64,000 bases of DNA, taken from Archivesica marissinica. Its lineage: Eukaryota; Mollusca; Bivalvia; Venerida; Vesicomyidae. The stretch spans positions 9,077,536 through 9,141,535 of the forward strand of contig CM026393.1 of NCBI GenBank assembly GCA_014843695.1. Reading direction: 5' to 3'. A model generated the notes under the pieces. That model was not told where the DNA came from. It worked only from the letters and a program-made list of their open reading frames with translations, and did not search any database. Shown in pieces: positions 1-38,604 of the stretch; within the stretch, counting starts at the first letter, position 1, and each line of letters begins with the position of its first letter. Made by a program: the position numbers and the translations under genes.

Positions 1-872
1 CATTGTAATTGCACCAACGTATGTCCTATATCTGCATGTCAATACATTGCAATTGCACCAACGTATGTCCTATATCTACATGTCAATACATTGCAATTGC
101 ACCAACGTATGTCCTATATCTGCATGTCAATACATTGCAATTCCACCAACGTATGTCCTATATCTGCATGTCAATACATTGCAATTCCACCAACGTATGT
201 CCTATATCTACATGTCAATACATTGCAATTGCACCAACGTATGTCCTATATATGCATGTCAATACATTGCAATTGCACCAACATATGTCCTATATCTGCA
301 TGTCAATACATTGCAATTCCACCAACGTATGTCCTATATCTGCATGTCAATACATTGCAATTCCACCAACGTATGTCCTATATCTGCATGTCAATACATT
401 GCAATTCCACCAACGTATGTCCTATATCTGCATGTCAATACATTGCAATTCCACCAACGTATGTCCTATATCTGCATGTCAATACATTGCAATTGCACCA
501 ACATATGTCCTATATCTGCATGTCAATACATTGCAATTGCACCAACGTATGTCCTATATCTGCATGTCAATACATTGCAATTCCACCAACGTATGTCCTA
601 TATCTGCATGTCAATACATTGCAATTCCACCAACGTATGTCCTATATCTACATGTCAATACATTGCAATTCCACCAACGTATGTCCTATATCTGCATGTC
701 AATACATTGCAATTCCACCAACGTATGTCCTATATCTACATGTCAATACATTGCAATTGCACCAACGTATGTCCTATATCTACATGTCAATACATTGCAA
801 TTGCACCAATGTATGTCCTATATCTGCATGTCGATACATTGCAATTGCACCAACGTATGTCCTATATCTGCA
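1..872. repeat. 44-bp minisatellite, about 20 copies, continues off the left edge
   Basis: Head-to-tail copies of a 44-bp unit containing the block caccaacgtatgtcctatat. Units differ mainly at one G/C site after 'caatt' and at 'tctgcatg' versus 'tctacatg'. The array is cut by the window edge and ends at about 872, only 8 bases before the likely splice acceptor at 879-880. Because 44 is not a multiple of three, every forward frame stays open across it; these frames are not genes. Confidence 0.95.
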
Positions 873-880
873 TGTTTCAG

Positions 881-1006
881 ATTGAACATAGGCTGCTTGC
901 TGTTGGAAGAGATATCTCCATTGCTGTGCAACCCTCAGACTTTGTCAAGGAACTCAAAAAACAAGTGAAAAAACTGAAGGGTTACAAAGACTATCTCATT
1001 AAGTGA
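881..1006 (+). CDS. Probable last coding exon of an unidentified gene (C-terminal 41 residues)
   Basis: Directly after the minisatellite there is 126 bp of non-repetitive sequence preceded by a good 3' splice site (catgtttcag, AG at 879-880). It reads in phase 0 as 41 residues and a stop (TGA 1004-1006). The residues look like real protein: an ordinary mixed start (IEHRLLAVGRDISIAVQPSD) and a lysine-rich amphipathic tail (VKELKKQVKKLKGYKDYLIK) that could end a coiled coil. I do not recognise the family. Upstream exons would lie left of the window, with the 44-bp array in the last intron. The 3' untranslated region would be the next minisatellite, which starts about 14 bases after the stop. 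Alternative: a fragment of a retroposed gene, or chance. Confidence 0.45.
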   Translation: MEHRLLAVGRDISIAVQPSDFVKELKKQVKKLKGYKDYLIK

Positions 1007-1019
1007 TTTATTGTTTAGC

Positions 1020-3290
1020 ATGAAACAAGTAACACACACACACGGACAGATGAAACAAGTAACACACATGGACAGATGAAACAAGTAACACACACGGACA
1101 GATGAAACAAGTAACACACATGGACAGATGAAACAAGTAACACACACACGGACAGATGAAACAAGTAACACACACGGACAGATGAAACAAGTAACACACA
1201 CACGGACAGATGAAACAAGTAACACACACGGACAGATGAAACAAGTAACACACACGGACAGATAAAACAAGTAACACACACACAAGGACAGATGAAACAA
1301 GTAACACACACACACGGACAGATGAAACAAGTAACACACACACAAGGACAGATGAAACAAGTAACACACACACACGCACAGATAAAACAAGTAACACACA
1401 CACAAGGACAGATGAAACAAGTAACACACACACACGGACAGATGAAACAAGTAACACACACACAAGGACAGTTGAAACAAGTAACACACACACACGGACA
1501 GATAAAACAAGTAACACACACACTAGGACAGATGAAACAAGTAACACACACACACGGACAGATGAAACAAGTAACACACACACACGGACAGATGAAACAA
1601 GTAACACACACACAAGGACAGATGAAACAAGTAACACACACACAAGGACAGTTGAAACAAGTAACACACACACAAGGACAGTTGAAACAAGTAACACATA
1701 CACAAGGACAGATGAAACAAGTAACACACACAGAAGGACAGATGAAACAAGTAACACACACAGAAGGACAGATGAAACATGTAACACACACACAAGGACA
1801 GATGAAACATGTAACACACACACAAGGACAGATGAAACAAGTAACACACACAGAAGGACAGATGAAACAAGTAACACACATAGAAGGACAGATGAAACAA
1901 GTAACACACACAGAAGGACAGATGAAACAAGTAACACACACAGAAGGACAGATGAAACATGTAACACATACACAAGGACAGATGAAACAAGTAACACACA
2001 CAGAAGGACAGATGAAACAAGTAACACACATAGAAGGACAGATGAAACAAGTAACACATATACAAGGACAGATGAAACAAGTAACACACACACAAGGACA
2101 GTTGAAACAAGTAGCACATACACACGGACAGATGAAACAAGTAACACACACAGAAGGACAGATGAAACAAGTAACACACACAGAAGGACAGATGAAACAA
2201 GTAACACACACACAAGAACAAATGAAAAAAGTAACACACATAGAAGGACAGATGAAACAAGTAACACACACAGAAGGACAGTTGAAACAAGTAACACACA
2301 CAGAAGGACAGTTGAAACAAGTAACACACACAGAAGGACAGTTGAAACAAGTAACACACACAGAAGGACAGATGAAACAAGTAACACACACACAGAAGGA
2401 CAGATGAAACAAGTAACACACACACAGAAGGACAGATGAAACAAGTAACACACATACAAGGACAGATGAAACAAGTAACACACATACAAGGACAGATGAA
2501 ACAAGTAACACACATACAAGGACAGATGAAACAAGTAACACACACAGAAGGGCAGATGAAACAAGTAACACACACACAGAAGGACAGATGAAACAAGTAA
2601 CACACACAGACAGATGAAACAAGTAACACACACGGACAGATGGAACAAGTAACACGCACAGAAGGACAGATGAAACAAGTAACACACATACAAGGACAAA
2701 TGAAACAAGTAACATACAAGGACAGATGAAACAAGTAACACACACACAAGGACAGATGAAACAAGTAACACACATACAAGGACAGATGAAACAAGTAACA
2801 CACACACAAGGACAGTTGAAACAAGTAACACGCACAGAAGGACAAATGAAACAAGTAACACACATACAAGGACAGATGATACAAGTAACACACATACAAG
2901 GACAGATGAAACAAGTAACACACACACAAGGACAGATGAAACAAGTAACACACATGGACAGATGAAACAAGTAACATACATACAAGGACAGATGATACAA
3001 GTAACACACACACAAGGACAGATGAAACAAGTAACACACACACAAGGACAGGTGAAACAAGTAACACACACGGACAGATGAAACAAGTAACACACAAGGA
3101 CAGATGAAACAAGTAACACACATACAAGGACAGATGAAACAAGTAACACACATGGACAGATGATACAAGTAACATACAAGGACATATGAAACAAGTAACA
3201 CACATACAAGGACAGATGAAACAAGTAACACACAAGGACAGATGAAACAAGTAACATACAAGGATAGATGAAACAAGTAACACACACGGA
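1020..3290. repeat. Minisatellite of about 22-30 bp units, roughly 80 copies
   Basis: Copies of a unit built from gatgaaacaagtaacacaca plus a short variable (CA)n, caaggaca or cagaaggaca segment. Unit length changes in 2-bp and 4-bp steps because the internal CA tract varies. Many units are exactly 30 bp, so long open frames appear on both strands; composition and periodicity show these are not genes. Confidence 0.95.
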
Positions 3291-3644
3291 CAGACAAAGA
3301 ACATCGAGGGATCTCGTCACACACTGACAGACAGAGAACATCCTCGCTGTTGTCCTACATTCATGCATAATAATGGTCAAACACGTCCTGCCTAATAAAC
3401 TACTTTATTAATCAGTGCCTAATAAATGTTTCGTGATGTCATAGCGCTGCGTATGTGATGTCATAGCGCTGCGTATGTGATGTCATAGCGCTGCGTATGT
3501 GATGATGTCATTTGTTCACAGGTATGATTAAACATAAAATGTATTTTTTATCAGAAGATAAATAGAATATTAGGTTACTACCATCTGTTAAATTTTAAAT
3601 TATTAGGCTCATCTCTGAATACAAGGCCCGTCTCTGACTAGCCA
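3291..3644. other. Short spacer with a 22-bp triplication
   Basis: Non-coding spacer between two arrays. At 3433-3498 a 22-bp unit (gtgatgtcatagcgctgcgt + at) is repeated three times. No gene or transposon is recognisable in the rest. Confidence 0.7.
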
Positions 3645-6850: not shown

Positions 6851-6994
6851 CTTATAGTTTTCAGATTTAAATATTTTATTATAACTGTTATGGCTTTATA
6901 TTATAGTTTGTTATTGCTTGTTTTGTTAAATTCTAAGGTGTTTATATTCCAGGATTTAATATTGTATTATATTGAAATTAATATATATATATAG

Positions 6995-9490
6995 CGTGTG
7001 TAGCTTGTATACATATGTGTTATGCCAGGGTATGTGTGTGTGCTGGTATACATATGTGTTATGCCAGGGTATGTGTGTGTGCTGGTATACATATGTGTTA
7101 TGTCAGGGTATGTGTGTGTGCTGGTATACATATGTGTTATGCCAGGGTATGTGTGTGTGCTGGTATGCCAGGGTATGTATGTGTGCTGGTATGCCAGGGT
7201 ATGTGTGTGTGCTGGTATACATATGTGTTATGTCAGGGTATGTGTGTGTGCTGGTATACATATGTGTTATGCCAGGGTATGTGTGTGTGCTGGTATACAT
7301 ATGTGGTATGCCAGGGTATGTGTGTGTGCTGGTATGTCAGGGTATGTGTGTGTGCTGGTATGCCAGGGTATGTGTGTGTGCTGGTATGCCAGGGTATGTG
7401 TGTGTGCTGGTATGTCAGGGTATGTGTGTGTGCTGGTATGTCAGGGTATGTGTGTGTGCTGGTATGCCAGGTATGTGTGTGTGCTGGTATGTCAGGGTAT
7501 GTGTGTGTGCTGTGTTATGCCAGGGTATGTGTGTGTGCTGGTATACATATGTGTTATGCCAGGGTATGTGTGTGTGCTGGTATACATATGTGTTATGCCA
7601 GGGTATGTGTGTGTGCTGGTATGTCAGGGTATGTGTGTGTGCTGGTATGCCAGGGTATGTGTGTGTGCTGGTATGTCAGGGTATGTGTGTGTGGTATACA
7701 TATGTGTTATGTCAGGGTATGTGTGTGTGCTGGTATACATATGTGTTATGCCAGGGTATGTGTGTGTGCTGGTATGTCAGGGTATGTGTGTGTGGGTATA
7801 CATATGTGTTATGCCAGGGTATGTGTGTGTGCTGGTATACATATGTGTTATGCCAGGGTATGTGTGTGTGCTGGTATGTCAGGGTATGTGTGTGTGCTGG
7901 TATACATATGTGTTATGCCAGGGTATGTGTGTGTGCTGGTATGCCAGGGTATGTGTGTGTGCTGGTATACATATGTGTTATGTCAGGGTATGTGTGTGTG
8001 CTGGTATACATATGTGTTATGCCAGGGTATGTGTGTGTGCTGGTATGTCAGTGTATGTGTGTGTGCTGGTATACATATGTGTTATTCCAGGGTATGTGTG
8101 TGTGTGCTGGTATGCCAGGGTATGTGTGTGTGCTGGTATGCCAGGGTATGTGTGTGTGCTGGTATGCCAGGGTATGTATGTGTGCTGGTATGCCAGGGTA
8201 TGTGTGTGTGCTGGTATGCCAGGGTATGTGTGTGTGCTGGTATACATATGTGTTATGTCAGGGTATGTGTGTGTGCTGGTATACATATGTGGTATGCCAG
8301 GGTATGTATGTGTGCTGGTATACATATGTGTTATGTCAGGGTATGTGTGTGTGCTGGTATGCCAGGGTATGGTGTGTGCTGGTATGCCAGGGTATGTATG
8401 TGTGCTGGTATACATATGTGTTATGCCAGGGTATGTGTGTGTGCTGGTATGCCAGGGTATGTGTGTGTGCTGGTATGCCAGGGTATGTGTGTGTGCTGGT
8501 ATGCCAGGGTATGTGTGTGTGCTGGTATGTCAGGGTATGTGTGTGTGCTGGTATGTCAGGGTATGTGTGTGTGCTGGTATGCCAGGGTATGTGTGTGTGC
8601 TAGTATACATATGTGGTATGTCAGGGTATGTGTGTGTGCTGGTATACATATGTGTTATGTCAGGGTATGTGTGTGTGCTGGTATGCCAGGGTATGTGTGT
8701 GTGCTGGTATGCCAGGGTATGTGTGTGTGCTGGTATACATATGTGTTATGTCAGGGTATGTGTGTGTGCTGGTATACATATGTGTTATGCCAGGGTATGT
8801 GTGTGTGCTGGTATACATATGTGTTATGTCAGGGTGTGTGTGTGCTGGTATACATATGTGTTATGTCCGGGTATGTGTGTGTGCTGGTATACATATGTGT
8901 TATGCCAGGGTATGTGTGTGTGCTGGTATACATATGTGTTATGTCAGGGTATGTGTGTGTGCTGGTATGCCAGGGTATGTGTGTGTGCTGGTATGCCAGG
9001 GTATGTGTGTGTGCTGGTATACATATGTGTTATGTCAGGGTATGTGTGTGTGCTGGTATACATATGTGTTATGCCAGGGTATGTGTGTGTGCTGGTATAC
9101 ATATGTGTTATGTCAGGGTGTGTGTGTGCTGGTATACATATGTGTTATGTCCGGGTATGTGTGTGTGCTGGTATACATATGTGTTATGTCAGGGTATGTG
9201 TGTGTGCTGGTATACATATGTGTTATGCCAGGGTATGTGTGTGTGCTGGTATGCCAGGGTATGTGTGTGTGCTGGTATACATATGTGTTATGCCAGGGTA
9301 TGTGTGTGTGCTGGTATACATATGTGTTATGCCAGGGTATGTGTGTGTGCTGGTATACATATGTGTTATGCCAGGGTATGTGTGTGTGCTGGTATACATA
9401 TGTGTTATGCCAGGGTATGTGTGTGTGCTGGTATCATATGTGTTATGCCAGGGTATGTGTGTGTGCTGGTATACATATGTGTTATGTCAG
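6995..9490. repeat. Composite TG-rich minisatellite built from two unit types, runs into the gap
   Basis: The array mixes a short unit of about 26 bp (tatgccagggtatgtgtgtg + tgctgg) with a long unit of about 39 bp that adds tatacatatgtgt in front. The two types occur in irregular order for about 2.5 kb. The array ends at the assembly gap, so its true length is unknown. Open frames with CVCAG-type repeats are artefacts. Confidence 0.95.
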
Positions 9491-10490
9491 NNNNNNNNNN
9501 NNNNNNNNNNNNNNNNNNNNNNNNNNNNNNNNNNNNNNNNNNNNNNNNNNNNNNNNNNNNNNNNNNNNNNNNNNNNNNNNNNNNNNNNNNNNNNNNNNNN
9601 NNNNNNNNNNNNNNNNNNNNNNNNNNNNNNNNNNNNNNNNNNNNNNNNNNNNNNNNNNNNNNNNNNNNNNNNNNNNNNNNNNNNNNNNNNNNNNNNNNNN
9701 NNNNNNNNNNNNNNNNNNNNNNNNNNNNNNNNNNNNNNNNNNNNNNNNNNNNNNNNNNNNNNNNNNNNNNNNNNNNNNNNNNNNNNNNNNNNNNNNNNNN
9801 NNNNNNNNNNNNNNNNNNNNNNNNNNNNNNNNNNNNNNNNNNNNNNNNNNNNNNNNNNNNNNNNNNNNNNNNNNNNNNNNNNNNNNNNNNNNNNNNNNNN
9901 NNNNNNNNNNNNNNNNNNNNNNNNNNNNNNNNNNNNNNNNNNNNNNNNNNNNNNNNNNNNNNNNNNNNNNNNNNNNNNNNNNNNNNNNNNNNNNNNNNNN
10001 NNNNNNNNNNNNNNNNNNNNNNNNNNNNNNNNNNNNNNNNNNNNNNNNNNNNNNNNNNNNNNNNNNNNNNNNNNNNNNNNNNNNNNNNNNNNNNNNNNNN
10101 NNNNNNNNNNNNNNNNNNNNNNNNNNNNNNNNNNNNNNNNNNNNNNNNNNNNNNNNNNNNNNNNNNNNNNNNNNNNNNNNNNNNNNNNNNNNNNNNNNNN
10201 NNNNNNNNNNNNNNNNNNNNNNNNNNNNNNNNNNNNNNNNNNNNNNNNNNNNNNNNNNNNNNNNNNNNNNNNNNNNNNNNNNNNNNNNNNNNNNNNNNNN
10301 NNNNNNNNNNNNNNNNNNNNNNNNNNNNNNNNNNNNNNNNNNNNNNNNNNNNNNNNNNNNNNNNNNNNNNNNNNNNNNNNNNNNNNNNNNNNNNNNNNNN
10401 NNNNNNNNNNNNNNNNNNNNNNNNNNNNNNNNNNNNNNNNNNNNNNNNNNNNNNNNNNNNNNNNNNNNNNNNNNNNNNNNNNNNNNNNNN
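9491..10490. other. Assembly gap, exactly 1000 N
   Basis: A run of N of standard placeholder length. It hides the end of the TG-rich array, the 5' flank of the LTR retrotransposon and the first few bases of its 5' LTR. Confidence 0.99.
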
Positions 10491-11454
10491 CAAAACCCCA
10501 ATTTGCACGAAATATTTATTATTGTTATATATAAATAGTAATGTATTATATAAATACATTAAACTGTTTCTATATATGGCCAAATGTTTACCATGTAATA
10601 TATATATATTTGTTTTATGCATAATCGTCTGCTATTATTTTCGCGCCTAAAATTATCAGTCTCGCTTCGCGCGGGAAATGACTTAAGATTTTAGGCCTAA
10701 TCTCAGTTTATCAAGGCCGTGGTTGCAGGTGTCCAGTTATGTAATATAAAGGCGACGAACTGGTTTGATGGTGTAATATTAGATAACATAACAGATGTTT
10801 TAGGAATAACAGATGTTTTAGGAATTGTTATATCATATAGACACTGATTCAATCGTGTATATAAGAAATGGATTTTATTAACTAAAATCAGAACACTTAG
10901 GCCTACCTCCAGGAGAGAGAGTGGCGTGATCTCATTCTATAGAACATATAAACTGTTTCTATGATACTTAGATATTATGGACATTATAAGAATTATAACT
11001 TATAAAGATTTGTCGAATAATTAAATAAAATCGTTCAGCCATAGAAGAAACAGAGAGTTTCGGCGAACCATATCGAAGGTGATTAAAAGTTAATAAATCA
11101 GAAACATTGATTAGATTATAGTGATATTGAGTAATGACGGATTAGAGAAACTGGAGTTAATTATATTGTGTAGCGCATAGTCGGCTCACACAAATTGGAT
11201 TGTTAAATAAGCGTTTAATGATACGATGATATATATATAAATCACTGATTATATATATCAGAATATCTCTGATGCCAATTTAAACAAGATATTATATAGA
11301 AGAAATGTAAGACTGTGTTGAGTTATTATTAATACATATATTGAAGAAGAAACCCCCTAGACAACTCCAGCGAGTCTACAATAGGATAGACCCTGGTAAG
11401 AGCCGTAGCAACTGAGATATATAAATACGAGAAGAAAAAGGAGAGTTTGCGACA
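10491..11454 (+). repeat. 5' LTR (first about 4 bases lost in gap)
   Basis: Aligns from its first visible base with the 3' LTR from 16787. It ends gagtttgcgaca, giving the canonical CA terminus just before the primer binding site. The first roughly 165 bp match the 3' LTR perfectly. The rest carries several dozen substitutions and small indels (my count by eye is about 45). Confidence 0.92.
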
Positions 11455-11456
11455 AT

Positions 11457-11475
11457 TGGGACGCTCGTCCGGGAT
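11457..11475 (+). promoter_or_regulatory. Primer binding site, tRNA-Pro-like
   Basis: The sequence tgggacgctcgtccgggat lies 2 bases after the 5' LTR. Its 3' thirteen bases (gctcgtccgggat) equal the tRNA-Pro-type primer site known from murine leukaemia virus. The first part (tgggac instead of tgggg) differs and makes the site one base longer. The primer is therefore probably tRNA-Pro or a close relative; the host tRNA would settle it. Confidence 0.7.
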
Positions 11476-11950
11476 TGGACATACAATACAATACAAAACA
11501 TTTTATTGCATGAGATAATAAAATACAATAAAGAAGAAATGACATATCGTGACATATTGTGAAGGACACTAGAATTTATATATGGAATATTGTGAAGGAC
11601 ACTAGGATTTATACATGAAGAATACAAGGGACTATTAATTAACGTGTGAAAACAGAAGTGCATGCGAAACAGTGTTAGAATTTGTAAATAAGTGAAAGAC
11701 GTCAACGAATTATTAAATTAATGAAATGGATTAAATTATTGGAAATGTGCAAACTTTGAATATGTGATAAATTATATATTGGATTAACGGACGAGACAGA
11801 CTTCGGTAAGTACCAGTTTTCTTTTCATAGAGGCTTAATATTATCATTAAAATTATATTAGTGATTTACTTCCTTTTATTGAACTCAATTCTATAATACA
11901 TTTGGAGATACATTCTGGGGATTAAAAATTTTGGGAAATAAAAAAATAAA

Positions 11951-14900
11951 ATGGCTACAACTAGGAGTGCTAATAAGGAAACTGAGGGGCCGGTTCACCC
12001 CGACTTGCAGACAACAGGTGATGAGATATGGGACAAATTAATGAGACTTCCCTTCTTTAATCAGGCAAATCTGGAACGTCAGGGTGAGATTTATGAGAAA
12101 GAAAGAGAGAGGGAAAGAGAGAGGGAAGAAGTAAAACAAAGAGAGAGAGAAAGAGAGAGGGAAGAAGTAAAACAAAGAGAAGAAAGAGAGAGGGAAAGAG
12201 AAGAAAGAGAAAGAGAGAGGGAAGAAGTAAAACAAAGAGGGGAAAGAGAAGAGAAAGAAAGGGACAGGGAGGAAAGAATGCAAAGGGAGAAAATGCAGAT
12301 GGAGATTCGCCTGAGAGAAATCCAGAGAGATCAGGAATCTCAGCAAAATAACCCCCTCCATACAGATAATAGGCCCTCTAAGACAAACATTTCTGTTCCT
12401 ATTTGGACCCAGACTATGAGGCCAGATAAATTCTTCGCAACATGTGAGAGACTGTTCGAAGCTAGCCAGGTCGCCAAACAAACATGGGTGGGCCATATTA
12501 TAGACAAGTTGTCCGACAAGGCCAGAAATATATATGCCACTCTTCCTGTCCAAGACGCTAATAATTACGATACCCTCAAGGCCGCCATCTTGGATGAATA
12601 TAGACTCTCACCCACTGTATATAGAAAGAATTTCTTCTCTTGGGTAAAGAAACCTCAGCAGACATATTCCGAATTCATTAAGGAATTAAGGGAGCAAATG
12701 ACTCTATGGACGGAGAACAATGATCCGAGCGAGGTCAACTGGATCGAGCTGCTCTTGAGATATAGATTCGATTCCCAGCTAAGTGATGAGCTTAATTTGT
12801 TCATTCTGGATAAGAAAGCATCTACTCTCCAGGAATGTATTTCCCTGGCTGATGAATATAACCTCCATCGCAGATTAGCGCCCAGGACACGGATTAATTC
12901 AAATCCGAATGTGAAACCCAGAGATACAGAACACCGACCTCCAGCCCCAAGGCCATATATCCCATCACCCATGTATCGACCCAATATTAGGATAGATAAT
13001 TCCCAAGCTACCCATAGAACTCCCCGGATAGAAAAATATTGTAGTTATTGTAGGCGTAATGGCCACGGACGAACAGAGTGTTGGGCAGATCCCAATTCAC
13101 CTAGGTACAGGGGTACTAGAAACCTAGCAAACGGACACCAAGTGTCAAACACTACTCATAGTTCAGCCTTTATAACCAATGAGCCAGTGAACTCATATGA
13201 AAATACCGAGATGGTAAATCCATTACTTGTCAAATATACAGGTCAAGCACGCATAAATAATAACACCGCACAAGTGACGTATTTGAGAGATTCAGGTGCG
13301 ACAATTAGTTTATTGTCGGCTACTGATCAGACCGCTGATCATTTAGAATACACAGGTGAACGGGTAACAATCCGCGGTGTCAATTATATCCCTGGTAATT
13401 ATCCGATAGCAAAGATTAGCGTCGATTGTCCAATATACCAAGGAACATTGAAGGTGGCTGTATTAAAACACAGATGCACCGCGGGGGTGGATCTTATAAT
13501 AGGTAACGACTGTGAAACTGCCCCTGTCACTGATTTGATTACCTGTGGCGTGGTTACACGCTCAAATAAGAAAATTATCCCGTTTGATGAAATTGTCACG
13601 TCCAACCCAGACTCAGAAAACACGACCGATACAAATCACAATGTCTTACCTTTTCGGAATACAATTGAGATCAATTCCCCCTCTGAGAAAGCCAGTACAG
13701 TTAAACCCCAAAATATTCCCTCTATTGACGATTTGAGTCCTGATAAATTATTGCAAGAACAGAATAATGACCCGACCTTAGCACCCCTCTGGGAAATGGC
13801 TCAAGAAGGAACACCTATTCGGCAAGGATATTACATCCAGCTCGAACCCCGACTACTTATGAGGAGAGAACAACCTCAAGACACGTCCAAAGTTCGACCC
13901 TGGAAAATATATGATCAGGTGGTAGTTCCACGGGGATTCCGTGATCATATAACGGGACTCGCCCATGACAGTTTAAGTACGGGACACCAGGGACCTAGTA
14001 AGACCCTGAAGCGCATTAAGCGCCGCTTCTTTTGGCCGGGAATCCGCGCAGATGTTAAACGATTCTGCCATAGCTGTGGGCCGTGCCAGAGAGCGGGTAA
14101 GGGACAGAAAGCCACTGTAGCCCCATTGAAACCCCTGCCCATTATATCCCAACCATTCAAATTTATATCCGCTGATTTCGTTGGACCCATGAAGAAAACT
14201 ATAAATGGGAACCAGTATATCTTGAATTTTATTGATCATGCCACTAAATATACGGAATCTTTCCCATGCGCCGCAGCGACAGCTGTTAATGCACAAAAAG
14301 CCCTGATCGAGATAATATCTCGACATGGAAAACCCCAGACCCTGTTGACTGACCGAGGAAGCGCTTTCATAGCTGAAACATTCACACGCTTCCTAGCCGA
14401 GCACGATATACGTCACTTAACTAGCACGAGTTACAGGCCTCAAACCAACGGATCAATAGAGAAATATAATGGTACATTGAAAACCATGCTTAGAATCCTT
14501 GGGGAGAACTCTTTATCGTCTTGGGATGAGATGCTACCCTGGCTATTATTTGCATATAGAAGTGCAGAGCACTCTAGCACAGGATATTCTCCCTTCTACC
14601 TTCTATATGGGCGCGAACCTAGAGATAATCTAGATTCCACTTATGATCTCTGGGCTAGAAATGAGCGGGATGAAGGGATCCCCATAAATAACTATGTACA
14701 AGAATTATGTCATAGATTAGCTGAAGCGTTACGTGACGCCAGCGAGAATGCACAACAGGCCGCAGATGGTCGTAAAACAAAGTATGACAGAAGTAAGAAA
14801 GCGAAAATGCGTGTATTCCAGCGTGGTGAATTAGTGTTAGTACGATTACCGTTAAAAGGTAATAAGCTGAAAAATGCCCTCCAGGGACCGTATCCGGTAC

Positions 14901-16558
14901 ACGAAAAGGTAGCGTCGCATACCTATATTATATACATGCCTGATAAGAGAGTAAAATACCGTGTTATGCATGTAAACCAGTTGAAGCCCTGGACAGGTAG
15001 GGAGGAGGGTGCAGCTCTAGCTGATAGTAGTCCGGTGTATGAGTCCCAAGACCCTACCCTATTAGATTACCAAGCCCCTACGGACATTGAGAAAGAATTC
15101 GATCCTTGCAGTCCTCTTGAATCTGTACCTAAGAAAACCTGGCCGGATATCAGTCATTTAAACCCAGACCACAGGGACGATATTAGTCAGTTATTTGACC
15201 GTTACCCCCGTTTATTCTCTGGACAACTGGGACGTTTCCACGGTGTTACCCATGATATTGATGTGCAAGGTGCTTCACCCGTAGTCCAGCCTTACTACCG
15301 CATGTCTCCAGAAAAGAAACAAATATTAAAAACTGAGCTAGATCAAATGTTGGAGTTAGGAATTATCCGCCCTAGCAGAAGCCAGTGGGCCTCTCCCATA
15401 ATATTGGTACGCAAATCAGACTCAGAATGGCGACCATGTATTGATTATCGGAAAATTAATGACCTGACTCGAGGAGAAGCCTTCCCCATCCCGAGATTAG
15501 ACGATCTCATTGATCAGGTCGCAGGTTCGAGTCTGATATCAATTTTAGATCTTAATAAAGGTTACTGGCAGATTCCGCTAACCCCTCGAGCTAGTGAAAT
15601 TGCAGCGTTCATAACCCCCTGGGGCTTGTTTGAACCATTAACTCTCCCATTTGGTTTAAAAAACGGTGGAGTTACCTTCCAGAGGGCCATAAACGAGATA
15701 ATCGCTCAATCCCCGACAGAACCCATCCGTGATAGATTTGCCGACGCATATCTGGATGATATTGCTGTTCGATCCAATTTATGGTCACAGCACATAAATC
15801 ACTTGGATTGGACATTTCATAGACTAGAGGATAGTGGTGTTACTTTGAATCCGAAGAAGTGTAAAATTGGGTCTGGAACAGTCAAGTACTTGGGACATGA
15901 ATTAGGGTCGGGAAAAATCAAACCAATTTCCAGCAAGGTTGAGTGTATTAGTAATATCTCTCCCCCACAGACCAAGAAACAATTACGAGGATATCTGGGA
16001 TCAGTAGGATTTTACAGGAAATTCATTCCCCAGTTCGCTGAGATCGCCGCTCCCCTGACTGACTTATTAAAGGGCAAGCGATCAGGGAACATCATAACTC
16101 AGTGGAGCGATAAACATCAACTTGCTTTCGAATCCTTAAAGAAAGCTTTAACCAATAAACCCATACTGAAGGCCCCTGACTTTAACCAAGAGTTCGAACT
16201 CTATACTGATGCTTCCGATTTGGGAATTTCGGCTGTACTGACTCAGACCGTTGACCAAGTACCACACCCAGTAGCATTTTATTCCCGAAAACTTATTCCA
16301 CGAGAGAAAAACTACTCTACAATAGAGAAGGAATTATTAGCTATAGTGGCCGGTATCGAACATTTTCGCATATATGTAAGCACAAGCAAAACAATAATTA
16401 ATTCAGATCATAATCCCCTTGTATGGTTAAGTAGGTCGAAAACGTCCAATCAACGCCTCTTAAGATGGGCACTGTGTCTCTCAGAATTTAATCTGACCAT
16501 TAAACATATCAAAGGGACTCAAAATGTTCTAGCAGACTTTCTCAGTAGAGTTCAATGA
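11951..16558 (+). CDS. Gag-Pol polyprotein (Gag, protease, integrase, RT, RNase H), 1535 residues
   Basis: A single uninterrupted frame from ATG 11951 to TGA 16556-16558. Gag: residues about 45-120 are extremely charged (repeated RERE/EEVKQR), a likely helix or coiled coil. A capsid-like region follows (about 150-320), then a CCHC zinc knuckle C364-C367-H372-C377. Protease: DSGA with D447. Integrase: HHCC zinc domain (H672, H679, C706, C709), DDE triad D742, D801, E837 with the classic 35-residue D-E spacing, then a GPY/F-like module (G979-Y981). RT: about 1110-1290 with active site YLDD at 1267-1270. RNase H: acidic residues D1420, E1459 or E1461, and D1486; the frame ends about 40 residues later. 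No frameshift separates gag from pol, so Gag and Pol would be made as one chain and processed. All visible catalytic residues are intact, so the element may be recently active, although the LTRs differ. This start is the first ATG after a 475-bp leader. Confidence 0.96.
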   Translation: MATTRSANKETEGPVHPDLQTTGDEIWDKLMRLPFFNQANLERQGEIYEKEREREREREEVKQREREREREEVKQREEREREREEREREREEVKQRGEREEKERDREERMQREKMQMEIRLREIQRDQESQQNNPLHTDNRPSKTNISVPIWTQTMRPDKFFATCERLFEASQVAKQTWVGHIIDKLSDKARNIYATLPVQDANNYDTLKAAILDEYRLSPTVYRKNFFSWVKKPQQTYSEFIKELREQMTLWTENNDPSEVNWIELLLRYRFDSQLSDELNLFILDKKASTLQECISLADEYNLHRRLAPRTRINSNPNVKPRDTEHRPPAPRPYIPSPMYRPNIRIDNSQATHRTPRIEKYCSYCRRNGHGRTECWADPNSPRYRGTRNLANGHQVSNTTHSSAFITNEPVNSYENTEMVNPLLVKYTGQARINNNTAQVTYLRDSGATISLLSATDQTADHLEYTGERVTIRGVNYIPGNYPIAKISVDCPIYQGTLKVAVLKHRCTAGVDLIIGNDCETAPVTDLITCGVVTRSNKKIIPFDEIVTSNPDSENTTDTNHNVLPFRNTIEINSPSEKASTVKPQNIPSIDDLSPDKLLQEQNNDPTLAPLWEMAQEGTPIRQGYYIQLEPRLLMRREQPQDTSKVRPWKIYDQVVVPRGFRDHITGLAHDSLSTGHQGPSKTLKRIKRRFFWPGIRADVKRFCHSCGPCQRAGKGQKATVAPLKPLPIISQPFKFISADFVGPMKKTINGNQYILNFIDHATKYTESFPCAAATAVNAQKALIEIISRHGKPQTLLTDRGSAFIAETFTRFLAEHDIRHLTSTSYRPQTNGSIEKYNGTLKTMLRILGENSLSSWDEMLPWLLFAYRSAEHSSTGYSPFYLLYGREPRDNLDSTYDLWARNERDEGIPINNYVQELCHRLAEALRDASENAQQAADGRKTKYDRSKKAKMRVFQRGELVLVRLPLKGNKLKNALQGPYPVHEKVASHTYIIYMPDKRVKYRVMHVNQLKPWTGREEGAALADSSPVYESQDPTLLDYQAPTDIEKEFDPCSPLESVPKKTWPDISHLNPDHRDDISQLFDRYPRLFSGQLGRFHGVTHDIDVQGASPVVQPYYRMSPEKKQILKTELDQMLELGIIRPSRSQWASPIILVRKSDSEWRPCIDYRKINDLTRGEAFPIPRLDDLIDQVAGSSLISILDLNKGYWQIPLTPRASEIAAFITPWGLFEPLTLPFGLKNGGVTFQRAINEIIAQSPTEPIRDRFADAYLDDIAVRSNLWSQHINHLDWTFHRLEDSGVTLNPKKCKIGSGTVKYLGHELGSGKIKPISSKVECISNISPPQTKKQLRGYLGSVGFYRKFIPQFAEIAAPLTDLLKGKRSGNIITQWSDKHQLAFESLKKALTNKPILKAPDFNQEFELYTDASDLGISAVLTQTVDQVPHPVAFYSRKLIPREKNYSTIEKELLAIVAGIEHFRIYVSTSKTIINSDHNPLVWLSRSKTSNQRLLRWALCLSEFNLTIKHIKGTQNVLADFLSRVQ

Positions 16559-16769: not shown

Positions 16770-16782
16770 GGGTAGGGAGGAT
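16770..16782 (+). promoter_or_regulatory. Polypurine tract before the 3' LTR
   Basis: The purine-rich stretch gggtagggagga ends next to the TG of the 3' LTR (16783-16784). Its position fits the plus-strand primer of LTR retrotransposons. Confidence 0.7.
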
Positions 16783-17757
16783 TGTGCAAAACCCCAATTT
16801 GCACGAAATATTTATTATTGTTATATATAAATAGTAATGTATTATATAAATACATTAAACTGTTTCTATATATGGCCAAATGTTTACCATGTAATATATA
16901 TATATTTGTTTTATGCATAATCGTCTGCTATTATTTTCGCGCCTAAAATTATCAATCTCGCTTCGCGCGGGAAATGACTTAAGATGTTAGGCCTAATCTC
17001 AGTTTATCAAGGCCGTGGTTGCAGGTGTCCAGTTATGTAATACAAAGGCACCGAACTGGTTTGATGGTGTAATATTAGATAACATAACAGATGTTTAGGA
17101 ATAACAGATGTTTTAGGAATTGTTATATCATATATACACTGATTCAATTATGTATATAAGAAATGGATTTTATTAACATAGATCAGACACACTAGAGCCT
17201 AACTCCAGGAGCGAGAAAGGTCGTGATCTCAATCTAGTATATAGAACATATAAACTGTATTTATGATACTTAGATATTATGGACATTATAAGAAATATAA
17301 CTTATAAAGATTTGTCGAATAATTAAATTGTTCAGCCACAGAAGAAACATAGAGTTTCGGCGAACCATATCGAAGGTTGATTAAAAGTTAATCTAATCAG
17401 AAACAGTGATTAGATTATAGTGATATTGAGTAATGACGGATTAGAAAGATTGGATGTTAAATATACTGTGTAAGCGCATAGTCGGCTCACACAAATGGAT
17501 TGTTAAATAAGCTTTTAATGATACGATGTATATATATATATAGATCACTGATTATATATATATGGATATTTCTGATGCCAATATAAACAAGATATTATAT
17601 AGAAGAAATGTAATACTGTGTTGAGTTATCATTAATACATATAATAACGAAGAAACCCCCTAGACAACTCCAGCGAGTCTACAATAGGATAGACCCTGGT
17701 AAGAGCCGTAGCAACCGAGACATATTATTACGAGAAGAAAAAGGAGAGTTTGCGACA
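16783..17757 (+). repeat. 3' LTR, about 975 bp
   Basis: Begins tgtgcaaaacccc and ends gagtttgcgaca, i.e. TG...CA. It includes a segment with tttcgcgcctaaaattatca and a run of TATA-like sequence. It differs from the 5' LTR by scattered changes after about base 165. Confidence 0.92.
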
Positions 17758-18107: not shown

Positions 18108-18330
18108 ATGTACTTTTTCGATAGATCTACGATGTTCAAGCGAAACTCGTCCAATTCCGGCCAGCAGATAATGCATTGAGACGTACCGAGTTAAGTCTGT
18201 AACTGGACGAGCAGTTTCGTATTGGAGCTACTATAATGTATCGTTTTCATATTGTCTGCAGCTATTCCCACACAGTAGATGCGTATTCTAGTAGAGGTCT
18301 AATGCAATATATGTCTAAAGTCTATAGGCC

Positions 18331-18573
18331 GTCCGATTAGAGCAGTTGTTAGCGCGCTCGCTTCTCACCAATGCAACCCGGGTTCGATCCTCGGACCCGG
18401 AAGTATGCGAGATGGTACGGTGGTCGCTAGATTGGACAGGTGTGTTTTCTCCGGGTACTCATGTTTCCTCCCACACCAAACATTTACGCTTTCATCCGCT
18501 ACAATGAAAGTGATTAATATAAGTTGTTAAAACTTGCTTCGCAATCATTGTAAAATAAAGAAAGTTAATAAAA
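18331..18573 (+). mobile_element. SINE family A copy (tRNA head, 'ctccgggtactc' core)
   Basis: The head gtccgattagagcagttgtt is A-box-like; cccgggttcgatcctc is the B box. It is followed by a core with gttttctccgggtactcatg and cctcccacacc, then the tail taatataagttgttaaaact and cttcgcaat, ending A-rich with aataaagaaag. The core block is widespread in animal SINEs. Confidence 0.88.
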
Positions 18574-19136: not shown

Positions 19137-19822
19137 ACTGTGTCAAATCATGAACTAGAATAGATTGCACGTATTTTCATTATATATATATATATAATGA
19201 AAATACGTGCATATATATATATATATATAATGAAAATACGTGCAATATATATATATAATGAAAATACGTGCAAATATATATATAATGAAAATACGTGCAT
19301 ATAATATATATATATAATGAAAATACGTGCAATATATATATATATGAAAATACGTGCAATATATATATATATAATGAAAATACGTGCATATTATATATAT
19401 ATAATGAAAATACGTGCAATATATATATATATATAATGAAAATACGTGCAATATATATATATATAATGAAAATACGTGCAATATATATATATAATGAAAA
19501 TACGTGCAATATATATATATATATATAATGAAAATACGTGCAATATATATATATATATAATGAAAATACGTGCAATATATATATATATAATGAAAATACG
19601 TGCAATATATATATATATAATGAAAATACGTGCAAAAATATAATATATATATATAATGAAAATACGTGCAATATATATATATAAATGAATATATATAATG
19701 AAATACGTGCAATATATATATAATGAAAATACGTGCAATATATATATATAATGAAAATACGTGCACTATATATATATAATGAAAATACGTGCAATATATT
19801 CTAGTTCATGATTTGACACAGT
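19137..19822. mobile_element. Fold-back element with an internal AT-rich tandem array
   Basis: The left end ctgtgtcaaatcatgaacta + gaata (19138 on) and the right end tattctagttcatgatttga + cacag (ending about 19820) are perfect inverted repeats of about 25 bp. The inner arms, attgcacgtattttcattat on the left and its complement on the right, extend the palindrome. The interior is about 22 copies of the arm segment (ataatgaaaatacgtgca plus variable (TA)n). This looks like a non-autonomous element whose right arm was amplified. A clean target-site duplication was not found. Confidence 0.7.
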
Positions 19823-19841
19823 TAGTTGATCTTCTTTGATG

Positions 19842-21990
19842 TCATCAAGGTGTAAATCTGTGTGTATATGTGGACATCTGCTTCCTGATGTCATCAATGT
19901 GTAACTCTGTGTGTATATGTGGACATCAAGGTGTAAATCTGTGTGTATATGTGGACATCAAGGTGTAACTCTGTGTGTATATGTGGACATCAAGGTGTAA
20001 CTCTGTGTGTATATGTGGACATCTGCTTCCTGATGTCATCAAGGTGTAAATCTGTGTGTATATGTGGACATCAAGGTGTAAATCTGTGTGTATATGTGGA
20101 CATCAAGGTGTAAATCTGTGTGTATATGTGGACATCAAGGTGTACATCTGTGTGTATATGTGGACATCAATGTGTAACTCTGTGTGTATATGTGGACATC
20201 AAGGTGTAACTATGTGTGTATATGTGGACATCAAGGTGTAACTCTGTGTGTATATGTGGACATCAAGGTGTAACTCTGTGTGTATATGTGGACATCAAGG
20301 TGTAACTCTGTGTGTATATGTGGACATCAAGGTGTAACTCTGTGTGTATATGTGGACATCAAGGTGTAAATCTGTGTGTATATGTGGACATCAAGGTGTA
20401 AATCTGTGTGTATATGTGGACATCAAGGTGTACATCTGTGTGTATATGTGGACATCAAGGTGTAAATCTGTGTGTATATGTGGACATCAAGGTGTAAATC
20501 TGTGTGTATATGTGGACATCAAGGTGTAAATCTGTGTGTATATGTGGACATCAAGGTGTAAATCTGTGTGTATATGTGGACATCAAGGTGTAAATCTGTG
20601 TGTATATGTGGACATCAAGGTGTAAATCTGTGTGTATATGTGGACATCAAGGTGTAAATCTGTGTGTATATGTGGACATCAAGGTGTAAATCTGTGTGTA
20701 TATGTGGACATCAAGGTGTAAATCTGTGTGTATATGTGGACATCAAGGTGTAAATCTGTGTGTATATGTGGACATCAAGGTGTAAATCTGTGTGTATATG
20801 TGGACATCAAGGTGTAAATCTGTGTGTATATGTGGACATCAAGGTGTAACTCTGTGTGTATATGTGGACATCAAGGTGTAACTCTGTGTGTATATGTGGA
20901 CATCAAGGTGTAAATCTGTGTGTATATGTGGACATCAAGGTGTAAATCTGTGTGTATATGTGGACATCAAGGTGTAAATCTGTGTGTATATGTGGACATC
21001 AAGGTGTAAATCTGTGTGTATATGTGGACATCAAGGTGTAAATCTGTGTGTATATGTGGACATCAAGGTGTAAATCTGTGTGTATATGTGGACATCAAGG
21101 TGTAAATCTGTGTGTATATGTGGACATCAAGGTGTAAATCTGTGTGTATATGTGGACATCAAGGTGTAAATCTGTGTGTATATGTGGACATCAAGGTGTA
21201 AATCTGTGTGTATATGTGGACATCAAGGTGTAAATCTGTGTGTATATGTGGACATCAAGGTGTAAATCTGTGTGTATATGTGGACATCAAGGTGTAAATC
21301 TGTGTGTATATGTGGACATCAAGGTGTAACTCTGTGTGTATATGTGGACATCAAGGTGTAAATCTGTGTGTATATGTGGACATCAAGGTGTAAATCTGTG
21401 TGTATATGTGGACATCAAGGTGTAAATCTGTGTGTATATGTGGACATCAAGGTGTAAATCTGTGTGTATATGTGGACATCAAGGTGTAAATCTGTGTGTA
21501 TATGTGGACATCAAGGTGTAAATCTGTGTGTATATGTGGACATCAAGGTGTAAATCTGTGTGTATATGTGGACATCAAGGTGTAAATCTGTGTGTATATG
21601 TGGACATCAAGGTGTAAATCTGTGTGTATATGTGGACATCAAGGTGTAAATCTGTGTGTATATGTGGACATCAAGGTGTAAATCTGTGTGTATATGTGGA
21701 CATCAAGGTGTCTGTGTGTATATGTGGACATCAAGGTGTAACTCTGTGTGTATATGTGGACATCAAGGTGTAAATCTGTGTGTATATGTGGACATCAAGG
21801 TGTAAATCTGTGTGTATATGTGGACATCAAGGTGTAAATCTGTGTGTATATGTGGACATCAAGGTGTAAATCTGTGTGTATATGTGGACATCAAGGTGTA
21901 AATCTGTGTGTATATGTGGACATCAAGGTGTAAATCTGTGTGTATATGTGGACATCAAGGTGTAAATCTGTGTGTATATGTGGACATCTG
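19842..21990. repeat. 32-bp minisatellite, about 66 copies
   Basis: Very uniform units containing tgtggacatcaaggtgtaaa and tctgtgtgtata. The first part uses more gtaactc units, the later part almost only gtaaatc. The motif gacatctgcttcctga occurs in the first copies and again at the right boundary (about 21983), so both edges share the same junction sequence. Confidence 0.96.
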
Positions 21991-22082: not shown

Positions 22083-22420
22083 TGGCATGATAGCGTAGTT
22101 TTAGCGCGTTCGCTTTATATGTGAACGGCCCGGAGTTCGCGCCCATTGTACGCTGGACTGGTAATCCAGGGATCGCAGGTTCGATCCCCCGTCTGACCAT
22201 AATAAAATAAACAGTCTTTCAGATGGGACTTTAAACCGAGGTCTTGTGTCGGTGCTGTACACCGTGCACGTAAAAGAACCAGAGGAGACACTGGAATGGG
22301 TCTCCGTCTGTATCATGCACTATCCTCCAAAAATCTAAAATGACTAATCTCTTCAGGAGGCGTCGCTCATATGGGCAACCGGTAGCGACGATAAATAAAC
22401 GTAAAACACACACGCCTATA
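22083..22420 (+). mobile_element. Composite SINE: family B head joined to family C body
   Basis: 22083-22146 resembles the family B tRNA head (gatagcgtagttttagcgcg, then cggcccggagttcgcgccca). At about 22147 it switches into family C (ctggactggtaatccaggg, the ggttcgatcccccgtctgac block and the 'caaccggtagcgacgataaa' tail). It ends with aaacacacac. No target-site duplication is evident at the junction. Confidence 0.75.
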
Positions 22421-23394
22421 TGTAGTCGTTACTATTGTAGCCTTAGACAAAACACTTATATTGCACACTGCGTCCTCAGGACCACTGTCCAGCGAAAACG
22501 ACAACATTGCATTTCCTGCTGTTCACGATGAAACAATGTGCCATTCTGGCGTTATTTTACAGGTCTCCATCAAATAAAAAGTATTTGTTGATAGAATAAG
22601 GTCTTCCGGTCGGGACCACAAGGGCATATCAGTGATCCGGTCGATTTTACCTAGTTTCTCGTCGATGTTTCTGCATGCATGTTTCATTTCCGTTGGTTGC
22701 CTTCAGTAAACATTACTTACTATATGACCATATGGCAAAACTAATTTGTGTATTGTGCCTGTGTGTGCAATAGTACCTATTTTGTATTTCAGTGTTTTAT
22801 AATTGTTCTAGCGCAGTTTTTAATATCCGATTAGCAGGGATATTGCAGCATTATCCCTAACATACTGTGATAAATGATTGTGTATAACTGTGATAAATGA
22901 TTGTGTATAATTTTGTTCAACTCTTATAACTCCATTTTGGAGTGGCATTGTACTATTAGTATGTAAACTATACATGTACTATTATTGTAAATATTGTACG
23001 TACAATGATGAGATGTAAATACAGATTACTATTACTTGTAAAGGTACCTTGACTTCTTCTATCATGTATTCTCGCCGTTGAACCGTCTGATCAGGCTATA
23101 TGCTGATTGCTCTTCAGACAGTGGAGCTGAAGCACCTGTCCGAATAGCAAACACTATAGATAATGATTGCCGCGGCTGATCTAGATCTATATTGTTTGCA
23201 CATTGCTTTGAATTTGTTCGGCGCTGAATGAGTAAAGCGCACGGCTATGTTAAATCTTAATGATAACCTGAAATCAAATACCCGTCCACATCGTCTGTAA
23301 ATCTTAATGATAACCTGAAATCAAATACCCGTCCACATCCTCTTTAAATCAAAATGAAATGAAATCCGAACCATGCGTGCAGACACCAATATAG
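22421..23394. other. Intergenic sequence, one 46-bp direct duplication
   Basis: No gene recognised. 22425-22475 still resembles the downstream part of a family B SINE (gtagccttagacaaaacact). At 23252-23345 a 46-bp segment beginning taaatcttaatgataacctg occurs twice in tandem. The rest is unique-looking AT-rich DNA. Confidence 0.5.
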
Positions 23395-23807
23395 ACAGAT
23401 GGATCAAAGGACATCATCACAGTTGACAGGATACAAATCAATCAGATTTACTTCCGATGTTCGAACTCAAAACTTGCGATCATCCGTCAATCTCCAACTT
23501 TGCCCTCCTAAGCCAACTACTGAAGTTTTTAAAAAATCTTTCTTATATTCAGAGTCACACTTGTGGAATTCCCTCCCTTATCACATCAAAACAGCACACT
23601 CTGTTCCACAGTTCAAAGCTTTATATATCAGGTGGTGCAAAGAACATATAACATAATAAACTGATAATATACAATTATACATGAATATAAGTATTAGTTC
23701 TTGCAGCTTATATCTTATTTCCTATGAAAGTTTTACTGGTTACTGTTTACATGTTTCATTATGCTAGTTCATGTTTTAATTTGTTGAGGGCCTCATGGTA
23801 GATTGAC
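23395..23807 (+). pseudogene. LINE 3' fragment (end of ORF2 plus 3' UTR), copy 1
   Basis: The reading frame contains the C-terminal LINE signature LWNSLPYHIK and PPKPTTEVFKKSFLY. It matches the copy at 39350-39720 in protein and in the following 3' UTR (tatacaattatacatgaata, then ttgttgagggcctcatggta). Only the last roughly 85 codons survive. The 3' UTR is interrupted at 23808 by a miniature element and resumes at 24416. Confidence 0.8.
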
Positions 23808-25599: not shown

Positions 25600-25885
25600 G
25601 TGCTTTAACGTTTATTTATCGTCGCTACCGGTTGCCCATATGAGCGACGCCTCCTGAAGAGATTAGTTAATTTGGAGGATAGTGCATGATACAGACAAAG
25701 ACCCATTCCAGAATCTCCTCTGGTTCTTTTACGTGCACGGTGTAAAGCACCGACACGAGACCTCAGTTTAACGTCCCATCTGAAAGACTGTTAATTTTAT
25801 TAGGGTCAGACGGGGGATCGAACCTGCGATCCCTGGATTACCAGTCCAGCGTGTTACCACTGGACTACTGATCCGTCTGTTAACT
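25600..25885 (-). mobile_element. SINE family C copy, near full length
   Basis: The minus strand contains agtccagtggtaacacgctg, gactggtaatccagggatcg, gcaggttcgatcccccgtct, the cagtctttcagatgggac body and the cggtagcgacgataaataaa tail. This is one of the best preserved copies. Confidence 0.88.
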
Positions 25886-25984
25886 GTGAACATCTGTGCA
25901 TATCTCTATTAATCATATTAACATATTATTAATAAACATCGCCCGATCAATTGTGTGATGACTCGCCGTCGGTCCCTCATCAGT

Positions 25985-26615: not shown

Positions 26616-27188
26616 ACCACAAAGACATGGTTTGAGCAAATTAAAACTATGTTTGCTACTTCTTACTCCTATAAACCCTAGCTTTTATCTTGTGTATTAT
26701 ATTAGCAGTACCACCAGATAAGATAATATCAATTTTATTTTGAGTCGGTAAGATAGCAACAGTACAACACAAGCTCGGAGTGAGCTTTTGAACCGACTAT
26801 ATAACATAACATTAGAATCACTGATAAGAGTATTATATTTGCCCCTAGCACTTTATCTAGGGCCATTTTCAGAAAATTGGTCTAGTCTATATGCATATTT
26901 ATTTAAATTTGTTTCTAAGATAACCAAATGCTGACAATGTTAAAACATAACTAAGTTATTTAGGTATGACAAATGTGTGCTTGTTAGCCATAAGAATATT
27001 AACCTAGTAACTGAATGTATTATCATGTCAGATAATAACTGTAAAGTGCGTTAACCGTAATAAAACACTGTCGTGACCTCATATCGTTGTACTTGCAGTC
27101 CATTATTATTAATATTGTATTGCTTTCAAAAGGCCATGGTATTATATTAAATCCTACGCGTAAATGTACGAACTTAACAATCTTAGTG
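26616..27188. other. AT-rich intergenic DNA, nothing recognised
   Basis: No open frame of note, no repeat and no similarity to the other elements in the window. Confidence 0.5.
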
Positions 27189-27189
27189 T

Positions 27190-27470
27190 GTGTTTACGTT
27201 TATTTATTGTCGCTACATGTTGCCCATATGAGCGACGCCTCTTGAAGAGATTAGTCATTTTAGATTTTTGGAGGATAGTGCAATGATACAGACAGAGACC
27301 CAATCCAGAGTCTTCTCTGGTTATTTTGCGTGCACGGTGTACAGCACCGACATAAGACCTAGGTTCAAAGTCCCATCTGAAAGACTGTTAATTGTATTAG
27401 GGTCAGATAGGGGATCGAACCTGCGATCCATGGAGAGCGTGTTGCACTGGACTACAGATCCGTCTTAATT
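27190..27470 (-). mobile_element. SINE family C copy downstream of the mucin gene
   Basis: Same family and same orientation as the EGF-mucin gene, about 225 bp past its stop codon. The tail gives AATAAA on the minus strand (plus-strand tttatt at 27199 and 27203), so it could supply a polyadenylation signal in the sense of the gene. The anticodon-arm region is partly deleted. Confidence 0.8.
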
Positions 27471-27694: not shown

Positions 27695-36932
<9,238 letters not shown>

Positions 36933-37392: not shown

Positions 37393-37446
37393 ATCGTGCG
37401 GGCCACCTTCAACGTCTAATTGGTTCGTCATTAACCCAAATGCATA

Positions 37447-37690
37447 CGCAGGTTCGATCCCCCGTCTGACCCTAATAACATTAACAGTCTTTCAGATGGG
37501 ACTTTAAACCGAGGTCTCGTGTCAGTGCTTTACACCGTGCAAGTAAAACAACTAGAGGATACTCTGGGATGGGTCTCTGTCTGTATCATTGCACTATCCT
37601 CCAACATCTAAAATGACTAATCTCTTCAGGAGGCGTCGCTCATATGGGCAACCGGTAGCGACGATATATAAACGTAAAACACACACAAAT
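37447..37690 (+). mobile_element. SINE family C copy, 5'-truncated
   Basis: Starts at the B box (cgcaggttcgatcccccgtc) and runs through the body to the tail gggcaaccggtagcgacgat and aaaacacacac. The tRNA anticodon arm and A box are missing. Confidence 0.85.
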
Positions 37691-38536: not shown

Positions 38537-38600
38537 TTAAACTTTATTTAATTTACAACTGCGAAGCAAGTTTTAACAACTTGTATTAATCACTCTCAGT
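38537..38600 (-). mobile_element. SINE family A/B tail fragment
   Basis: The minus strand reads gagagtgattaatacaagtt, then aaaacttgcttcgcagt: the shared 3' tail of families A and B without a body. It sits between two LINE fragments. Confidence 0.65.
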
Positions 38601-38604
38601 TATC

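Follow-up and report, generated by a model that had tools for sequence, protein, structure and literature searches.

An integrase-first, Gmr1-like Ty3/gypsy retrotransposon in the genome of the bivalve Archivesica marissinica

The question raised by this locus is whether an open frame in which integrase comes before reverse transcriptase (RT) belongs to a retrotransposon of the Ty3/gypsy superfamily with the gene order of the Gmr1 clade, or owes that order to something else. The frame lies at 11951..16558 of the window, by which we mean the whole stretch of 64,000 nucleotides analysed here (Archivesica marissinica, assembly GCA_014843695.1, contig CM026393.1, positions 9,077,536 to 9,141,535). 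We conclude, with a probability of roughly 0.93, that it is the coding region of a complete-looking, presumably autonomous integrase-first (Gmr1-like) Ty3/gypsy long terminal repeat (LTR) retrotransposon, which belongs to a subclade without a name and has been recently active. Its anatomy, domain order, kinship and genomic copies, and the near-identity of the best of these copies, are direct observations.

The frame is on the plus strand, as are all features of the element given below. It is open over 1535 codons and encodes a single product of 1535 amino acids (aa) in the order Gag, protease, integrase, RT and RNase H; the list of open frames of the window holds no other frame of at least 200 aa within the bounds of the element. 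By Pfam and an alignment of 19 proteins, the zinc finger (aa 659-715) and rve core (aa 734-830) of the integrase lie at 13925..14440 and the RVT_1 domain of the RT (aa 1153-1318, with YLDD at aa 1267-1270) at 15407..15904, and Pfam places RNase H (aa 1385-1513) at 16103..16489. The integrase triad D742-D801-E837 ends with the E837 codon at 14459-14461. The initial annotation had claimed an integrase-before-RT order in one intact frame, and this is borne out by the Pfam order of zinc finger, rve, RVT_1 and RNase H. The HHCC, triad and YLDD residues that it had named are all where it had put them, and every one of the 19 aligned proteins has H672, C706, C709, D742, D801, E837, D1269 and D1270. 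It had also read a GPY/F motif after integrase; GPY is present at aa 979, but the SH3-like segment around it (aa 965-1014, 14843..14992) scores 24.4 bits with PF24626, below the cut-off of 30.

The top match of the RT in the PDB is Ty3 (PDB 7q5b, E 1.4e-104), a chain that also has a second matched stretch, the place of which is not given by the match table. The integrase (aa 623-892) matches foamy-virus integrase in the PDB sequence comparison at E 1.2e-25, and a Pfam scan of the frame product gave no RT profile other than RVT_1 at E <= 0.01. By these matches and the RT-RNase H tree described below, the RT, RNase H and integrase are all of Ty3/gypsy type, as had been proposed for the RT and RNase H from their wording. 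Since the RT and the integrase are both Ty3/gypsy-like, the element does not join two superfamilies, an outcome that would have spoken against the proposal. Yeast Ty3 has an RT-RNase H and an integrase of the same superfamily as the element in the window, but in Ty3 the RT comes before the integrase.

At the other end of the product, the predicted model of the Gag capsid region (aa 132-316, 12344..12898) is two-lobed and helical, and the Gag is thereby predicted to have a capsid-like fold. The C lobe (aa 223-307, 12617-12871) is SCAN-like. The SCAN profile gives 23.6 bits against the Gag piece of the window, which is sub-threshold at a cut-off of 27, and 29.3 bits against P0009, a public protein of the same subclade (labels beginning with P are ours for public homologs, those with L for genomic loci); scans of the whole proteins found no SCAN match at E <= 0.01 in P0001, P0002, P0004 and P0012. 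Alignment also identified a CCHC zinc knuckle (aa 364-377, 13040..13081), all four ligand residues of which are kept in 16 of the 16 proteins that reach it, out of 19 aligned. The aspartic protease region, with a DSG containing D447, is at 13196..13600; its model has a mean predicted local distance difference test score (pLDDT) of 80 and Foldseek matches to retroviral proteases at E about 3e-4, and PF00077 is found at E 0.029, below its cut-off. A short tandem repeat at 12094-12271 encodes an E/R-rich stretch near the Gag N-terminus and differs in length between copies (window and L001-L008).

The element is about 7.3 kb long with LTRs of about 975 bases. The 3' LTR is at 16783..17757 (975 bases, TGTG...GACA) and the 5' LTR, which ends in GCGACA, is at 10491..11454, with its first four bases inside a 1000-N gap (9491-10490). 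Because this gap cuts the LTR, those four bases and the target duplication of the window copy cannot be read. A tRNA-Pro-like primer binding site (11457..11476) begins two bases past the 5' LTR and has several spellings among eight copies: TGGGGGCTCGTCCGGGATT, presumably complementary to tRNA-Pro, occurs in L006 and L007, and a variant in the window and four others. The polypurine tract GGGTAGGGAGGA, with one T inside, adjoins the 3' LTR at 16770..16781, and the same string stands directly before the 3' LTRs of the other copies compared. L019 is the one copy in which both LTRs and both flanks are readable; it has CTAT on each flank as a 4-base target duplication (the only copy read), and its LTRs differ by a Kimura two-parameter (K2P) distance of 0.015 over 1046 sites. 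The hallmarks of an LTR retrotransposon are thus present as paired LTRs, primer site, polypurine tract and, from L019 only, target duplication. The LTRs, primer site, polypurine tract, gap and further genomic copies go beyond what had been noted initially.

The order is shared widely. In a homolog search 7978 candidates were scored, 693 of them at E <= 1e-10, and the best 120 of the 693 were compared. Over the searched region P0001-P0014 are 48-60% identical to the window and P0019 46%, with the others among the matches listed at 42% or less. When full domains are required, integrase precedes RT in 114 of the 120 listed homologs, three are RT-first and three have an incomplete domain; by best BLAST hit alone 117 are integrase-first, P0097 among them, and three RT-first. 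The homologs were chosen by similarity over both domains jointly, so the set is biased to the integrase-first order; the recurrence of that order is far beyond chance. Named hosts of integrase-first matches include Xenopus, Sparus, Patiria, Antedon, Diadema and the sponge Amphimedon (P0026). A spider host was considered and dropped, as P0097 (Trichonephila) carries integrase both before and after the RT. A second search added 119 further proteins, of which 87 scored as RT-first, 30 as incomplete and two as integrase-first (P0195 and P0159, both pseudoscorpion); the latter two had been removed from the tree sets before rows were counted. Scans of IMG/VR for relatives returned no locus.

For the trees, rows were thinned by identity, which kept 62 of 115 integrase-first rows, the window included. 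The RT-RNase H tree (IQ-TREE; 62 integrase-first and 18 RT-first rows; support given as bootstrap and Shimodaira-Hasegawa approximate likelihood ratio, SH-aLRT) separates integrase-first from RT-first rows at 100/100. Within it the window and P0001-P0014 form a 15-row subclade (100/100), nested in a 36-row set (97/92); in a quick tree a 36-row set (94) contains the fish proteins P0021, P0039, P0041, P0048, P0084, P0086 and P0098. The integrase tree (62 integrase-first and 15 RT-first rows) recovers the same subclade with SH-aLRT 99. The element has two marks of a Gmr1-like element: an integrase upstream of the RT in pol (Pfam, homologs and alignment) and an RT-RNase H that shares a clade with those of other integrase-first elements (62 against 18 rows, a narrow RT-first sample). 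Pfam, the PDB matches and the RT-RNase H tree agree with the earlier proposal on the Gmr1-like order and on the Ty3/gypsy kinship of both enzymes.

Copies were then sought in the 1.54 Gb assembly (2808 contigs), where 21,923 candidates were found and 30 of them scored. Seven of the 30, the window included, are open throughout the frame, and the other 23 share one stop in Gag and one score. The seven open copies, at seven places, show 1-19 pairwise differences in 4605 aligned bases, length changes not counted, and the window and a copy on contig C1 are one base apart. A 33-base Gag marker, with either codon allowed at the stop, has 347 exact places in the genome against 0 for the reversed control. 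From these sequences the element appears to be young, many-copy and recently active. The variable sites among the seven copies are 22 nonsynonymous and 10 synonymous, a ratio of nonsynonymous to synonymous polymorphism (pN/pS) of 0.61; a claim of selection from this value was rejected, because the sites are too few and the copies were chosen by score.

We also rejected a high-copy subfamily with an in-frame Gag stop, which looks like one contig placed repeatedly by the assembly; 6 of the first 100 marker places carry the stop. Nine of the 23 stop-bearing matches were fetched (among L009-L017 and L023-L029). They share an identical block of at least 7083 bases, which in 9/9 starts abruptly at the same LTR point and is joined to differing broken pieces of the element. 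In three loci the identity runs at least 25,428 bases rightward of the marker, to the fetched end and about 20 kb beyond the element, and in a fourth at least 15,359 bases, to the end of the fetched piece. The stop-bearing matches are probably a single locus that the assembly placed many times over; a duplication of the block in the very recent past is a less likely reading.

Several points weigh against reading the element as recently active and Gmr1-like. Foldseek found no match for the Gag model at E <= 0.001. The seven open copies had the best scores, which means that they were in effect selected to be intact, and the 347 marker places do not give the number of elements, since duplicates are included. 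In the first 100 of these places there are five pairs with a spacing of exactly 165 bases (for example C1:60041824 and 60041989), which suggests copies with a duplicated Gag stretch and hence an overcount. The two LTRs of the window copy differ by K2P 0.055 over 962 sites. Its 5' LTR is 0.022-0.073 from other LTR pieces, and its 3' LTR 0.000-0.028 from the same pieces; the lowest 5' distance, 0.022, covers the first 375 sites only, the discordance being mainly further in. This copy may have recombined with another subfamily at its 5' end, or its sequence may be misjoined at the gap. Most of the RT-first rows are from a single pseudoscorpion genome or from unnamed contigs, with Ty3 and a protein of a frog besides, and this small number of sources makes the RT-first sample narrow. 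The cod Gmr1 sequence is in no set, and the Sparus aurata protein P0039 serves as its stand-in. Lastly, free integrase trees, with 12 or 15 RT-first rows, do not hold the 62 integrase-first rows as one clade.

The divergence of the window LTRs was rejected as a measure of age: the frame and the 3' LTR closely match other copies, and only the 5' LTR is discordant. At 10491-11480, next to the gap, the sequence type of the 5' LTR and of the first leader bases departs from that of the 3' LTR and of the LTRs in other copies, and the leader start carries bases absent from the other copies compared.

The split integrase trees bear on the alternative that survives best, in which the subclade gained its order separately from the fish Gmr1 group. 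These trees would need three changes of order with 12 RT-first rows and two with 15, and have long end branches among the RT-first rows. When one integrase-first clade is imposed, the integrase tree is slightly better than the free one and is not rejected (approximately unbiased test, p-AU 0.51). The RT tree has a single integrase-first side at 100/100, and the Gag of the window can be aligned with the Gags of SCAN-bearing proteins. We therefore regard a separate origin as very unlikely. Still less probable, at the edge of what we would consider, is that the locus is a chimera, made by assembly or recombination, and has its gene order by accident. The gap that cuts the discordant 5' LTR, and the stop-bearing block identical at nine fetched places, do suggest assembly faults around the element; but other open copies, with differences of their own, share the order, as do 114 of the 120 listed homologs. 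As regards the order this explanation is refuted, and with it the assembly artefact that the initial annotation had named as a possible refutation. A Ty1/copia element with an RT made gypsy-like by convergence would also have integrase before RT, but we give it hardly any credence, since the RT and RNase H match the RVT_1 and RNase H profiles, with Ty3 as the best PDB chain and RVT_1 as the sole RT profile at E <= 0.01, RVT_2 being the RT family of copia.

For the Gmr1-like element, we infer every step of its cycle from its anatomy together with the LTR retrotransposon cycle, which is established knowledge. The 5' LTR would give rise to an RNA, which Gag would pack into a particle. The protease of the element would cut the single polyprotein and free the integrase and the RT-RNase H, so that it need make no difference which of them comes first in the chain, and the swapped order needs no new chemistry. 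A tRNA-Pro-like primer would start complementary DNA synthesis at the primer site, and integrase would insert the product, with a short duplication of the target as the result (4 bases in L019). An excess of Gag over Pol without a frameshift could come from degradation of Pol or from a spliced gag RNA. The former operates in Tf1 and the latter in copia.

The Gmr1 clade of Ty3/gypsy is reportedly tied to a 2002 study by Goodwin and Poulter. The element in the window shares with this clade the upstream integrase and a gypsy-type RT, and may share a SCAN-related Gag, its SCAN match being under the curated cut-off; it falls in a separate 15-row subclade. Gmr1-Gmr4 of pufferfish have Gag-and-Pol products of 1506-1634 aa (PMC11117352, Table 2) and, like the element here, a single product and young insertions; they are 6.1-6.5 kb long with LTRs of 337-518 bases, against about 7.3 kb and 975 bases here. 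The fusion of gag and pol in one frame noted initially therefore stands, but not as a special trait. An extension of the host range had also been proposed, and this is weaker than claimed. Elements related to the Gmr1 clade are in print for crustaceans, by RT/RNase H (PMC3587641), and for the annelid Lamellibrachia (PMC8220671), which puts the clade outside deuterostomes, as the element here would, and the sponge protein P0026 has the same order. Integrase-first order and fused gag-pol are thus established Gmr1-like traits. The S. aurata element Saugg1, which may or may not be the source of P0039, is termed Gmr1-like in structure (PMC3587641). In molluscs, a survey of nine genomes and 46 further species describes six known Gypsy clades (A, B, C, CsRN1, Cigr-1 and Tor2) and 16 new MolGy clades defined on RT/RNase H, and in its available text mentions Gmr1 only as an exception in integrase position (PMC6238403). 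One of these MolGy clades may be identical with our subclade. The open-access literature we searched contained neither a Gmr1-like element in a mollusc nor a name for this subclade.

A wider reading, which we put forward tentatively and at somewhat less than even odds, is that integrase came to precede RT a single time, early in animal history (the order being shared by a sponge, echinoderms, fish, frogs and the present host), and that the unnamed lineage of the window has recently multiplied to many copies in a phylum without reported Gmr1-like elements. To a group whose defining mark is its unusual gene order, the element contributes a subclade that is well supported and recently active. Since several loci have intact frames, the effect of domain order on the retrotransposition cycle and the timing of the swap could be approached outside vertebrates. 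A capsid lobe is said to be the origin of the SCAN domain of vertebrates (PMC3424704), and the Gag seen here suggests a wider spread of that lobe. The general picture of LTR elements is unchanged.

The rest of the window holds further features, mostly recognized by eye. A tRNA-headed sequence resembling a short interspersed element (SINE) is at 18330-18500, with SINE-like repeated patterns near 22100-22300, 25600-25900, 27150-27470 and 37430-37600; a tRNA-Thr call at 25802-25874 may be the head of such a repeat. Broken RT pieces of the long interspersed element (LINE) type are at 38552-39587 and at 23363-23656; a search with a LINE fragment gave, for the first, 96 relatives, most of them with RVT_1, and a single named organism, an insect at 36% identity. 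A frame at 43859-44110 resembles the helix-turn-helix end of a Tc1/mariner-type transposase. On the minus strand, 27695-30544 holds a 949-aa frame with a start like epidermal growth factor (EGF) domains, a long repeat rich in Thr and Ser, and a hydrophobic segment at the C-terminus, resembling a mucin-like membrane protein. Large satellite or minisatellite arrays, seen by eye in the frame lists, occupy 1-3400, 6970-9490, 19140-21000, 33770-34570 and 54749-62000, and both 1000-N gaps (9491-10490 and 53749-54748) adjoin such arrays.

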